Part shown: positions 27,761 to 31,167 of the stretch, piece by piece
Layout: every line of letters starts with the position of its first letter
How positions within the stretch are numbered: the first letter of the stretch is position 1
Assembly: GCA_026984045.1 (NCBI GenBank)
Contig: JALSSV010000067.1
Coordinates: forward strand, 1 to 64,000
DNA from: Chromatiales bacterium
GTDB taxonomy: Bacteria > Pseudomonadota > Gammaproteobacteria > UBA6429 > Thiohalophilaceae
DNA length: 64,000 bases
Direction of reading: 5' to 3'
Notes under the pieces: model-generated
What the model saw: the letters and a program-made list of their open reading frames with translations, nothing else
The model's database searches: none
What the model was told of the DNA's origin: nothing
Position numbers and translations under genes: made by a program

Positions 27761-29104
27761 TCAGAAGATGTGCGTCAACTGCACCGCCAGGCGATTCCCG
27801 ATGCCATCGAGCTGGGCATTGGGCCCGGCGCCAGAACCGTAATTCACGGCGGTCACGTCACGCAGTGCATAATTGACCGTGAGACGGCTCTTGCGGTTGA
27901 AGTGGTACTGGAATCCCAACGTCGTGGTCTTCCACTTGGTCTCGAAGGGATCATCGATCAGCCGACGCATTTCGTCATAGCGCAGATCCAGCTCCCAGCT
28001 CGTTCCGGGAATGTACCAACCCAGATCGAGATACCAGCCATCGGCCTTGCCATCCTCACCGTTCCCGGGCGGAACACTGGGATTCATGTCGAACGTTGGC
28101 GAGTGCGGGCCAACGAAGATCATCCCTTCGGCCTTGTTGTATTCTCCGGAAATCCGATACGGCTTCTTCAGATACTTGAAGCCGATGCCGTAACGTTTGC
28201 GATCGTGCTCGGTAGGGTTGTACGTCGAGTCATTGGTGTTGTCGAGCAACCGCTTGCCGGTCTGACTCCAGACGTAGGCCTTGACCCCCGGGCGGAACGG
28301 CCCGCCTTTCGGCGAGAACACGTATTCCGTGGAAAGATAGAGATAGGTGTCCTTGTTGTTGTCATTGTCCGTGTAGTTCAGGCCATTGCCATTGCCCACC
28401 ATGACGGAGTAACTGTGCTCCCACTTTCCGACCTTGAAGGTATCGAACACCTGGATGCCCGTATCCCGTGCGGCGGAGACGGATTTGTCGAACTGGGTCA
28501 GGCCGCCATTGGACTGATCCACCGGCAGCGTCTGTGCCCCCACATTTGCTGTATAGCGTTGGTTCGGCGTCCGCTCGATGAGCTGCTGACCGGCGTAGGA
28601 AGTGAAATTGATGTAATCGAAGATCGCGATCCCCTGATACACCTCTTCCGACATGGGCGTTTTGAATTGCCCCATGCGAATCCGGGCACCCTTGATGTGA
28701 TTCAGGGTGATGCTCGCATCCGTGATCTTGGCGAACGAACCTCCGGGTTGCGTGATGCCGTTGTTGCCGAATTCGACCAGGAAGAAGTAATTGACCTTCG
28801 GATCCAGCGGGAAACCCGTCCCACGGACACCGACGCGGGCCCGGAAAACATTGAAGCTTTCCTGGGTCGTCAAATCCGGCCCGATCAGTTTCGGTGGAAT
28901 GTAACCGCCACTGGCATTGGGATCCGAATAGTCCTTCTGATATTGAGCCTGAATGAATCCCCAGACCTTGGCCCGCGGCGCGGCACCGGCCGGTTCCGTC
29001 CCCTGCAAGAACAGCCAGTTGGCCGCCTGGGCCTGACCGGCGATCCCTCCCATCACTGCCGCGGTGGTGGCGGCAAGCAGTGTTTTCTTGAAAGTGGTTT
29101 TCAT
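27761..29104 (-). CDS. Outer-membrane porin (OprO/OprP-like)
   Basis: This 447-residue precursor has a signal peptide ending ...GIAGQAQA and the features of phosphate-selective-type porins: KVWGFIQAQYQ, FRARVGVRGT, FGNNGITQPGGS, MGQFKTPMSEEVYQG and a final strand LAVQLTHIF ending in Phe. The substrate is unknown. It lies 62 bases downstream of the secreted DsrE-like gene with no terminator between, so the two are likely co-transcribed from the ECF-type promoter at 29701-29728. The ATG at 29104 starts the signal peptide. Confidence 0.85.
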   Translation of the reverse strand: MKTTFKKTLLAATTAAVMGGIAGQAQAANWLFLQGTEPAGAAPRAKVWGFIQAQYQKDYSDPNASGGYIPPKLIGPDLTTQESFNVFRARVGVRGTGFPLDPKVNYFFLVEFGNNGITQPGGSFAKITDASITLNHIKGARIRMGQFKTPMSEEVYQGIAIFDYINFTSYAGQQLIERTPNQRYTANVGAQTLPVDQSNGGLTQFDKSVSAARDTGIQVFDTFKVGKWEHSYSVMVGNGNGLNYTDNDNNKDTYLYLSTEYVFSPKGGPFRPGVKAYVWSQTGKRLLDNTNDSTYNPTEHDRKRYGIGFKYLKKPYRISGEYNKAEGMIFVGPHSPTFDMNPSVPPGNGEDGKADGWYLDLGWYIPGTSWELDLRYDEMRRLIDDPFETKWKTTTLGFQYHFNRKSRLTVNYALRDVTAVNYGSGAGPNAQLDGIGNRLAVQLTHIF

Positions 29105-29166
29105 TGTTCTGAAACTCCCCATGTTGTTTCTTCAACGATCCGGACAGGTGATTTCCGGACTCCTGC

Positions 29167-29610
29167 TTACGGCTTGATCAGCTTGTAACCCTTGTCCAAC
29201 AGCTCGACGATGCGAACCACCCCGGCGGAGACGGGTACCGCGTTCGGGTTGAGGGCCGGCGGGTGGCCGAGCTTCTTGCCCATGTTGCGAATCGTGTTCT
29301 TGCAGGCGGAAAAGCGCACGCCGTTGTCCACCAGGCTCTTGATGCGGCCCTTGTTGGCGTTCTCCTTGAACAGCAGGCGCAGGCCGGGGCCGAAGGCCAC
29401 GATTTCGATCTTGACGCGATCGGGGCCATAGTACTTGAGCACGTTGTTGGCCACGTTCAGCACCAGGGTCTGCTTGAAGGGGTTCGGGTCGCTGATCTGC
29501 AGGACGATCTTCTGCTCGGCGAATTCACCGCCGGCAGCCGATGCCGTCATGCTGCCCAGGGACAGACCCAGCATCAGCAGAACGGCAAGCCATCGGTATG
29601 CCATTTTCAT
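29167..29610 (-). CDS. Secreted DsrE/DsrF-like protein
   Basis: This 147-residue protein has a cleavable signal peptide (residues 1-26, ...TASAAGG) followed by a DsrE-like domain: KIVLQISD, VKIEIVAFGPGLRLL, NGVRFSACKNTIRNM with single Cys103, and a VVRIVELLDKGYKLI tail. DsrE-family proteins in the cytoplasm carry sulfur on a cysteine; the periplasmic variants are uncharacterised. The domain is homologous to the periplasmic half of the anti-sigma factor encoded divergently. GGAGGAATAC precedes the ATG at 29610. Confidence 0.85.
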   Translation of the reverse strand: MKMAYRWLAVLLMLGLSLGSMTASAAGGEFAEQKIVLQISDPNPFKQTLVLNVANNVLKYYGPDRVKIEIVAFGPGLRLLFKENANKGRIKSLVDNGVRFSACKNTIRNMGKKLGHPPALNPNAVPVSAGVVRIVELLDKGYKLIKP

Positions 29611-29700: not shown

Positions 29701-29728
29701 AAGACGGCAAGGCTTCAAAAATTATTCC
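29701..29728 (-). promoter_or_regulatory. ECF-type promoter for the DsrE-porin operon
   Basis: On the minus strand GGAATA (29723-29728) and CGTCTT (29701-29706) are separated by exactly 16 bases. The same arrangement stands before the ECF sigma gene on the other strand. This fits an ECF -35/-10 pair. The leader to the DsrE start codon would be about 85 bases. Confidence 0.7.
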
Positions 29729-29821: not shown

Positions 29822-29849
29822 GGAATACTTTGAAACCCTGCCTCGTCTG
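29822..29849 (+). promoter_or_regulatory. ECF-type promoter for the sigma/anti-sigma operon
   Basis: GGAATA (29822-29827) and CGTCTG (29844-29849) are separated by 16 bases, about 35 bases before the sigma factor start codon. It matches the divergent motif at 29701-29728, which suggests autoregulation by the sigma factor. Confidence 0.7.
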
Positions 29850-29884: not shown

Positions 29885-30445
29885 ATGTTCGCCATGACAC
29901 CGTTTGCCTTGTTGCAGAAACGCCGCGCCTTCAAACAACGTATCGAGGCGTTTCGGCCACGCCTGTTCCGCCTGGCCTGCTCCTGGTGCCACAATCCGGA
30001 TCTGGCCGACGATCTGGTGCAGGAGGCCCTGCTCAAGGCACTGAAGAACGCCCAGCAGCTCAAGAACCCGGAGGCCTTCGAGAGCTGGCTGTTTTCCATC
30101 CTCAACAACTGCTGGCGGGATCACTTCCGCCGCCGGCGCGAAATCGAGGACATCGACAACGTCGTGCTCATTGAAGAGATGACTCCCTCCCACTACGCCG
30201 AACAGCAGAACATCGTCGACAAGGTGCGCAGTGCCGTGGCCACCCTGCCCGCCGGCCAGTGCCAGGTGCTGACCCTCGTCGATCTGGAAGGCTTGAGTTA
30301 TCTCGAAGTGGCCGAGGTGCTGGACATTCCCATCGGCACGGTCATGAGTCGCCTGTGCCGGGCGCGCAAGGCCCTCGCCGGCAAACTCATGGAATTCCAG
30401 CCCGAACAGGTTCAACCGAAGACCCGGTTGCGGAGAGTGAAATGA
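29885..30445 (+). CDS. ECF-family RNA polymerase sigma factor
   Basis: This 186-residue protein has sigma region 2 (FRLACSWCHNPDLADDLVQEALLKAL, then FESWLFSILNNCWRDHFRR for -10 recognition) and region 4 (LPAGQCQVLTLVDLEGLSYLEVAEVLDIPIGTVMSRLCRARKAL). There is no sigma region 3, which defines the ECF class. The ATG at 29885 is used; the ATG at 29894 is equally possible. The stop overlaps the anti-sigma ATG (ATGA), so the two are made together. The likely targets are its own promoter and the divergent DsrE-porin operon. Confidence 0.93.
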   Translation: MFAMTPFALLQKRRAFKQRIEAFRPRLFRLACSWCHNPDLADDLVQEALLKALKNAQQLKNPEAFESWLFSILNNCWRDHFRRRREIEDIDNVVLIEEMTPSHYAEQQNIVDKVRSAVATLPAGQCQVLTLVDLEGLSYLEVAEVLDIPIGTVMSRLCRARKALAGKLMEFQPEQVQPKTRLRRVK

Positions 30446-31167
30446 AAGAACGTTTTTCCGACGAACACCTGAACGCCTATCTCGACGGCGAACTGGACAA
30501 CGCCGAACGGCTGCACCTGATGGACGCCCTGCGTTCCGATCCCGCGCTGGCCAGCCGCGTCTGCCAGCTTCAGAAAGTCAAGGAGATGGTCCAACTGGCC
30601 TATCCGCTGCACGCCGAGACCGGCACCAACCCCAACTCCCGCCGCCGTGAACGGCGTTGGCTCAGTCCGGCGCTCGCCGCCTCGGTGCTGTTTCTGCTGG
30701 GGCTGGCCGGCGGCTGGTTCGCCAACCTGCAATATCATTCCACGCCCAGCCTGCTGGAGATTGCCAAGACCAGTCGCCTGGACACCCGCCACGCTGGCAA
30801 ACCCTGGCGGCTCATGCTGCACGTGAACAGCGCAGATACGCACCGCTATCAGGTCATGCTCTCGGAAACGGAGGAGCTGCTGCGCACGGCCCGCGCCGAA
30901 GGCCGGCCGATCCAGGTCGAAATCGTCACCAACGGCCCCGGTCTGAAGCTCCTGAGCGATCACGATGATCCGGTCACCCGCAAACTTCAGACCCTTGCCC
31001 ACCAATACGACAACCTCGAACTGCGTGCCTGCGAACGCGCCCTGCGCCGTTACCGCGCCCGCGAAGGCAAGGATCTGCGCCTCATCCCCGAAGCCGGCAC
31101 CGTCCGCTCGGCCATGCACGAGGTGATCAAACGCCAGCAGGAAGGCTGGGCGTATATCAATATCTGA
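30442..31167 (+). CDS. Transmembrane anti-sigma factor with periplasmic DsrE-like domain
   Basis: This 241-residue protein starts with a short anti-sigma-type cytoplasmic domain (FSDEHLNAYLDGELDNAER, residues 5-23; no HXXXCXXC zinc motif). One membrane helix follows (about 75-93) and then a periplasmic domain (121-241) homologous to the secreted DsrE-like protein: IQVEIVTNGPGLKLL matches VKIEIVAFGPGLRLL, LELRACERALRRY matches VRFSACKNTIRNM, and both end in a similar helix. Each keeps one cysteine at the matching place (Cys197 here). The domain is likely the sensor. A GGAGAG precedes the coupled ATG. Confidence 0.82.
   Translation: MKERFSDEHLNAYLDGELDNAERLHLMDALRSDPALASRVCQLQKVKEMVQLAYPLHAETGTNPNSRRRERRWLSPALAASVLFLLGLAGGWFANLQYHSTPSLLEIAKTSRLDTRHAGKPWRLMLHVNSADTHRYQVMLSETEELLRTARAEGRPIQVEIVTNGPGLKLLSDHDDPVTRKLQTLAHQYDNLELRACERALRRYRAREGKDLRLIPEAGTVRSAMHEVIKRQQEGWAYINI

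Follow-up and report, generated by a model that had tools for sequence, protein, structure and literature searches.

We analyzed the window, a stretch of 64,000 nucleotides from a Chromatiales bacterium, and identified a gene whose product is predicted to be an anti-sigma factor made up of a cytoplasmic anti-sigma domain, a membrane helix and a periplasmic DsrE domain. The gene lies directly behind that of an ECF sigma factor (Table 1). We interpret the pair as an ECF system that responds to sulfur, with the DsrE domain as its sensor, and that controls sulfur oxidation, and place the probability of this reading at roughly 0.6. The computed evidence comprises the fold, a conserved cysteine, a gene module, a motif shared within the module, a restriction to genomes with Sox or Dsr genes, and sox-linked promoters. 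To a wider proposal we give even odds, namely that this is an undescribed transmembrane sulfur-sensing pathway, widespread among sulfur-oxidizing gammaproteobacteria, in which a cysteine of a periplasmic sulfurtransferase fold would read sulfane sulfur or thiosulfate and the ECF regulon would include a paralogous secreted sulfur carrier, a porin and the sox operon.

Table 1. Features of the sigma/anti-sigma locus in the window
Feature	Position	Strand	Basis or remark
Outer-membrane porin	27761..29122	-	Porin_O_P (PF07396); directly behind the secreted DsrE gene in the same orientation; conserved partner
Secreted DsrE-like protein with signal peptide and invariant Cys103	29167..29610	-	Upstream end of the ORF also given as 29622
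Predicted ECF promoter GGAATA-N16-CGTC towards the DsrE-porin operon	29703..29728	-	PWM 23.1
Predicted ECF promoter GGAATA-N16-CGTC towards the sigma operon	29822..29847	+	PWM 23.5
ECF sigma factor, 186 aa	29885..30445	+	Sigma70_r2, Sigma70_r4_2; conserved directly before the fusion
Predicted anti-sigma factor with periplasmic DsrE domain, 241 aa	30442..31167	+	ATG overlaps the sigma stop codon (ATGA)
Putative cytoplasmic anti-sigma domain, residues 1-55, RseA-like	30442..30606	+	Model helices, weak RseA/MucA profiles, Asp15 conservation
Predicted single transmembrane helix, residues 74-98	30661..30735	+	Model helix and hydropathy; RRRERR before the helix, N-terminus inside
Predicted periplasmic DsrE domain, residues 121-241	30802..31164	+	PF02635, pLDDT about 95, Foldseek
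Cys197 codon; equivalent of active-site Cys78 in DsrE	31030..31032	+	Alignments

The predicted anti-sigma protein and its DsrE domain

A preliminary description of the locus had claimed that the periplasmic half of the anti-sigma factor is homologous to the secreted DsrE-like protein encoded next to it, and our comparisons bore this out. The two blocks on which the claim was based were both present, IQVEIVTNGPGLKLL in the fusion and VKIEIVAFGPGLRLL in its secreted neighbor. As single sequences the two proteins showed weak identity by BLASTP (21%, E = 9e-8). PF02635 (DsrE/DsrF-like) matched residues 145-240 of the fusion with 24.4 bits, above the curated family threshold of 22.7, and matched the secreted neighbor with 22.6 bits. 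Profile-profile comparison of fusion residues 118-240 with the secreted DsrE gave a probability of 99.6% (E 7.6e-25, 118 columns). Judged by these scores, the similarity is far beyond chance, and the profile-profile comparison together with the structure rules out a chance resemblance.

The AlphaFold model of the fusion, built from 42 homologues, had a mean pLDDT of 86 that rose to about 95 across residues 121-241, and its C-terminal half formed an alternating beta/alpha domain. A Foldseek search of the PDB with this model returned 1l1s (MTH1491) as the best match with a TM-score of 0.88 on the target, and other top matches were 2pd2 (0.83), 1jx7 (YchN, 0.72) and 2hy5_A (DsrE of DsrEFH, 0.63); the top group was made up of MTH1491, ST0148, DsrE of DsrEFH, Syntrophomonas DsrE and YchN. 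The secreted DsrE likewise found MTH1491 first (TM 0.92) and then ST0148. The structural check that the preliminary description had proposed, a comparison with DsrE and YchN folds, thus led to a confident assignment of the modelled C-terminal half to the DsrE fold.

The N-terminal half was modelled as helices 7-14, 20-32 and 34-53 (pLDDT about 95). It matched the RseA profile weakly (E 0.02), and the MucA profile likewise weakly; it reached 17.4 of 22.2 bits for zf-HC2, the anti-sigma NCBIfam models scored below cut-off, and the HxxxCxxC zinc motif was absent from this domain. Asp15, located within an LNAYLDGE motif, was kept in 41 of 42 fusions. When aligned by eye, this motif resembled that around Asp11 of E. 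coli RseA, a residue that is essential in that protein (PMC7406223). Helix 74-98 of the model fits a transmembrane segment after the RRRERR stretch.

The fusion protein contains two cysteines, Cys41 and Cys197. The latter had been proposed to be equivalent to Cys103 of the secreted protein, and the alignments agreed with this: the two residues were paired in the profile-profile alignment, they were invariant (42/42 fusions and 29/29 secreted DsrE proteins), and in a joint alignment both fell on Cys78 of the canonical DsrE of the same genome, which is encoded separately in the dsr cluster. The numbering of Cys103 holds from the Met start at 29610. In the class-wide fusions, all 28 examined had a cysteine 44-47 residues before the end of the ORF, within an equivalent motif. 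DsrE domains carry sulfur on a conserved cysteine, which in DsrE is Cys78 (PMC13047784, PMC6620896). Cys41 (30562-30564) lies in the putative cytoplasmic anti-sigma domain and was kept in 36/42 homologues; no zinc motif accompanies it.

Distribution and gene neighborhood

We searched for the fusion at full length, defined as a profile match that starts at or before position 13 and extends to position 243 or beyond. Full-length fusions were found in at least 26 of the 40 genomes of the window's family, frequently as two copies per genome. Even sampling of the class Gammaproteobacteria yielded them in 66 of 369 genomes, spread over 40 families; the conservation in related genomes by which the preliminary description had meant the fusion to be judged was therefore present. 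In a phylum sample, matches outside the class were present and none spanned the full length of the fusion. In a phylogenetic tree the 70 fusion DsrE domains formed one clade (support 0.93), indicating a single origin of the fusion within this data set, and the 45 secreted DsrE proteins formed a separate sister clade (0.97). The 66 genomes and the single clade rule out a one-off fusion or an assembly error.

The sigma gene encodes sigma-70 regions 2 and 4 only, and both Sigma70_r2 and Sigma70_r4_2 scored well above cut-off. From the ATGA overlap we infer that the sigma and fusion genes are co-transcribed, and the order of sigma followed by fusion was kept in nearly all loci. The secreted DsrE gene adjoined the pair in most loci, either divergent from it together with the porin gene or directly downstream, and several complete loci had the sigma and fusion genes without an adjacent DsrE gene. 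The flanking NnrS, IlvA, RpiA, ClcB-like and TlpA-like genes were common to some lineages only, and we therefore took them as context.

This arrangement bears on a different reading, in which the secreted DsrE would join the anti-sigma DsrE domain in a mixed oligomer and serve as co-inhibitor or ligand, in the manner of RseB on RseA. The anti-sigma DsrE domain would then be a docking platform, and a reaction of its cysteine with sulfur would not be required. Homo- and hetero-oligomers are known from the DsrE family, and the two proteins studied here are sister clades of one fold that are co-encoded in most loci. Against such partner sensing stand the complete loci that lack an adjacent DsrE gene, and the presence of Cys197 in 42/42 fusions despite a variable domain, which favors chemistry at this residue. 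We consider partner sensing unlikely.

Some loci differed in their neighbors. A secreted protein of unknown family stood beside the DsrE or sigma gene where the porin would otherwise be; its one fully read member has a TPR region, and a related gene in genome G010 carries the promoter motif described below (L076, L085, L086, L087; L144). In L072, L076 and L078 we noted, by eye, a phosphonate-binding-like sensor fused to GAF-GGDEF-EAL, located close to the sigma gene or immediately in front of it, and a PF12974 protein in genome G028 (L187) has the promoter motif. The window's genome encodes a second secreted DsrE-like protein away from any fusion (G000:C76, L088:493-918). In L287 and L288, a repeat encoding NRFVTVGRRDAAVEPTG (with variants) occurred at two places in the genome and is probably a dispersed repeat.

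Promoter motif and predicted targets

The pattern GGAATA-N15-17-CGTC was found in the family's 23 divergent regions towards sigma in 18 and towards DsrE in 17, while first-order Markov shuffles put the chance level for the whole set at 0.02 strand-hits. Of 28 class-wide sigma genes, 23 were preceded by a somewhat relaxed form, GGAAT-N15-18-CGTC, compared with 0.1 expected. Such an arrangement is characteristic of ECF systems that regulate themselves, and each copy of the motif would act as a promoter. A near-perfect motif (PWM 25.1) also stood before the gene of a 122-aa secreted protein of unknown family in two genomes (L338:3426-3791 and L339:3607-3972).

In the class sample the fusion was restricted to genomes with sulfur-oxidation genes. 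Either soxB or dsrA was present in all 66 fusion genomes (soxB in 65, dsrA in 52) as compared to 97 of the 303 genomes without the fusion (p = 4e-28), and at the family level soxB occurred in 39/40 fusion families versus 38/142 others (p = 5e-17). These p values are inflated by relatedness; the association is phylogenetically structured, and few families are mixed. We scanned for the fixed pattern GGAATAW-N15-CGTCT in 48 fusion genomes and in 80 soxB-positive genomes without the fusion. The motif lay within 10 kb of soxB in 13/48 of the former and 0/80 of the latter (p = 9e-7); the 13 include G194 and G304, where the site near soxB is the module's own promoter, and soxB positions were available for all of the 80 except G127 and G081. 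Most fusion genomes had no soxB motif.

Sox genes were identified with the NCBIfam SoxX, SoxY, SoxZ, SoxA and SoxB models. Upstream of the soxB start, the motif lay at a distance of 77-174 nt in G348, G300, G189 and G161, and G304 had a variant at 105 nt. Upstream of soxX, the distance was 38-308 nt in G205, G189, G161, G119, G275 and G121. In three genomes the module belongs to or adjoins the sox cluster: the sigma and fusion genes directly precede soxX in one orientation in G194 and G304, and the module flanks soxXYZAB in G205. The sox cluster of G205 has a further DsrE-like gene directly behind soxB (L327:8624-9064). In a follow-up with fresh soxB upstream regions, the regular expression matched 5/37 regions from genomes with the fusion and 0/43 from those without (p = 0.018), and PWM scores for this soxB set showed a non-significant trend (Mann-Whitney p = 0.066). 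In many of the sulfur-oxidizing gammaproteobacteria that carry it, the switch appears to turn on thiosulfate-oxidation genes.

Within the window's family the motif preceded soxX in three genomes (G002, G004, G027) and the gene of a YeeE-type sulfur transporter (PF04143) in two (G003, G005). Family-wide regulation of soxX and the YeeE transporter was rejected, since only genus g3 (G002-G005) and the soxX gene of G027 have the motif. In the window's own genome neither soxX nor the YeeE-type transporter gene had the motif and the scanned soxB region held no site before soxB, so that a direct sox link is unsupported for the window's own copy. Candidate sites in this genome were found before a secreted thioredoxin-like gene (G000:C13; L120, L164; PWM 11.1, conserved in G024) and a DUF302 gene (G000:C79; L130; PWM 14.8), both weak relative to the PWM score of 23 for the home sites.

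These two weak sites are among the evidence for a general thiol-stress sensor, in which Cys197 would respond to peroxide, hypochlorous acid, electrophiles or thiophilic metals, arsenite for example. One exposed cysteine could plausibly serve as a redox switch, Cys41 is also kept in most homologues (36/42), and arsenite alters the expression of DsrE-like genes of Thioalkalivibrio (PMC6620896). However, the near-perfect restriction to genomes with Sox or Dsr genes and the sox-linked promoters are unexpected for a general stress system, and we regard this explanation as improbable. The peroxide signal that the preliminary description had listed among its candidates found no specific support. Its suggestion that the DsrE domain is a sulfur sensor fared better, in that the genome association and the sox-linked promoters point to sulfur; the sensor role and the sulfur signal themselves are what we infer. 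It is very improbable that the DsrE domain is a membrane-tethered sulfur-transfer or structural module and that sigma control is unrelated to sulfur: the link between the DsrE domain and sigma release is a predicted one, but one ancient fusion in 40 families, within an autoregulated module with a sulfur-gene regulon, is hard to explain without signaling.

Proposed mechanism and relation to known systems

In the sulfur-sensing system that we propose, the cytoplasmic domain of the anti-sigma factor would hold the sigma factor, while the periplasmic DsrE domain, a sulfur-carrier fold with a single cysteine, would monitor sulfur, in reduced or sulfane form, on the outer side of the cytoplasmic membrane. 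The most likely route is binding of sulfur to Cys197, perhaps after it has been handed over by the co-regulated secreted DsrE. Sulfur loading would set the sigma factor free, with regulated proteolysis, known from other ECF systems, as the probable means. The sigma factor would then transcribe two operons of the module, its own and the divergent one for DsrE and porin, and in many lineages also the sox genes for thiosulfate oxidation. With a paralogous secreted carrier, a porin for small anions and, in many lineages, Sox enzymes as its output, the module would adjust supply to demand.

Parts of this design have known counterparts. In E. coli, RpoE and RseA(-RseB) combine an ECF sigma factor with a single-pass, non-zinc anti-sigma factor able to bind a periplasmic partner, a design that the putatively RseA-like fusion would share, but the periplasmic part of RseA is not a DsrE domain and its signal is envelope stress. 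The RsgI anti-sigma-I factors of Clostridium thermocellum (PMC12203970) resemble the fusion in being membrane anti-sigma factors with an outer domain of a kind also found in secreted proteins of the controlled pathway. This outer domain binds the substrate of the pathway, and the fusion would work in an analogous way. They differ in that SigI is not an ECF factor, the domains bind carbohydrates and are not a sulfur-carrier fold, and the hosts are Gram-positive. The canonical DsrEFH/TusBCD sulfurtransferases and MTH1491/YchN have the fold and active-site cysteine in common with the fusion. Canonical DsrE, however, is cytoplasmic and encoded in the dsr operon, whereas the fusion is predicted to be membrane-anchored (positive N-side) and periplasmic and is encoded outside any dsr operon.

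ECF control of sulfur oxidation has itself been described. The ECF26 factors SmRpoE4 and SnSigE control sulfite oxidases (PMC6527743), and sigma2/sigma7 of Arcobacter act on sox (PMC3445524); a DsrE sensor was reported for neither. How the anti-sigma factors sense sulfite is stated to be unknown (PMC6527743). The repressors SoxR and sHdrR with the transporter SoxT1B (PMC11582611) provide a precedent for regulation of sox by external sulfur, as proposed here, but these repressors are cytoplasmic and need a membrane transporter for the signal, whereas the DsrE fusion would sense in the periplasm.

The preliminary description had considered a DsrE fold as the sensor of an ECF pathway to be new, and in the open literature, the coverage of which is incomplete so that catalogued but unnoticed copies may exist, we likewise found no description of a DsrE-domain anti-sigma factor. 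What is new is the sensor domain, together with the conserved module and the sox regulon predicted for it; the pairing of an ECF sigma factor with a membrane anti-sigma factor and the ECF control of sulfur genes were known. Sensing of extracytoplasmic sulfur by sulfur oxidizers is stated to be poorly understood (PMC11582611). The module offers a concrete sensor candidate, in which an already known sulfur-carrier fold holds one invariant cysteine, and adds to it a defined putative promoter as well as predicted targets, among them soxB in several lineages. A membrane-bound brake that ends in a DsrE domain suggests a direct route for sensing sulfur outside the cell. If this is true, the fusion would give ECF pathways a sensor domain of a new kind and could serve as a compact part in sulfur biosensors.
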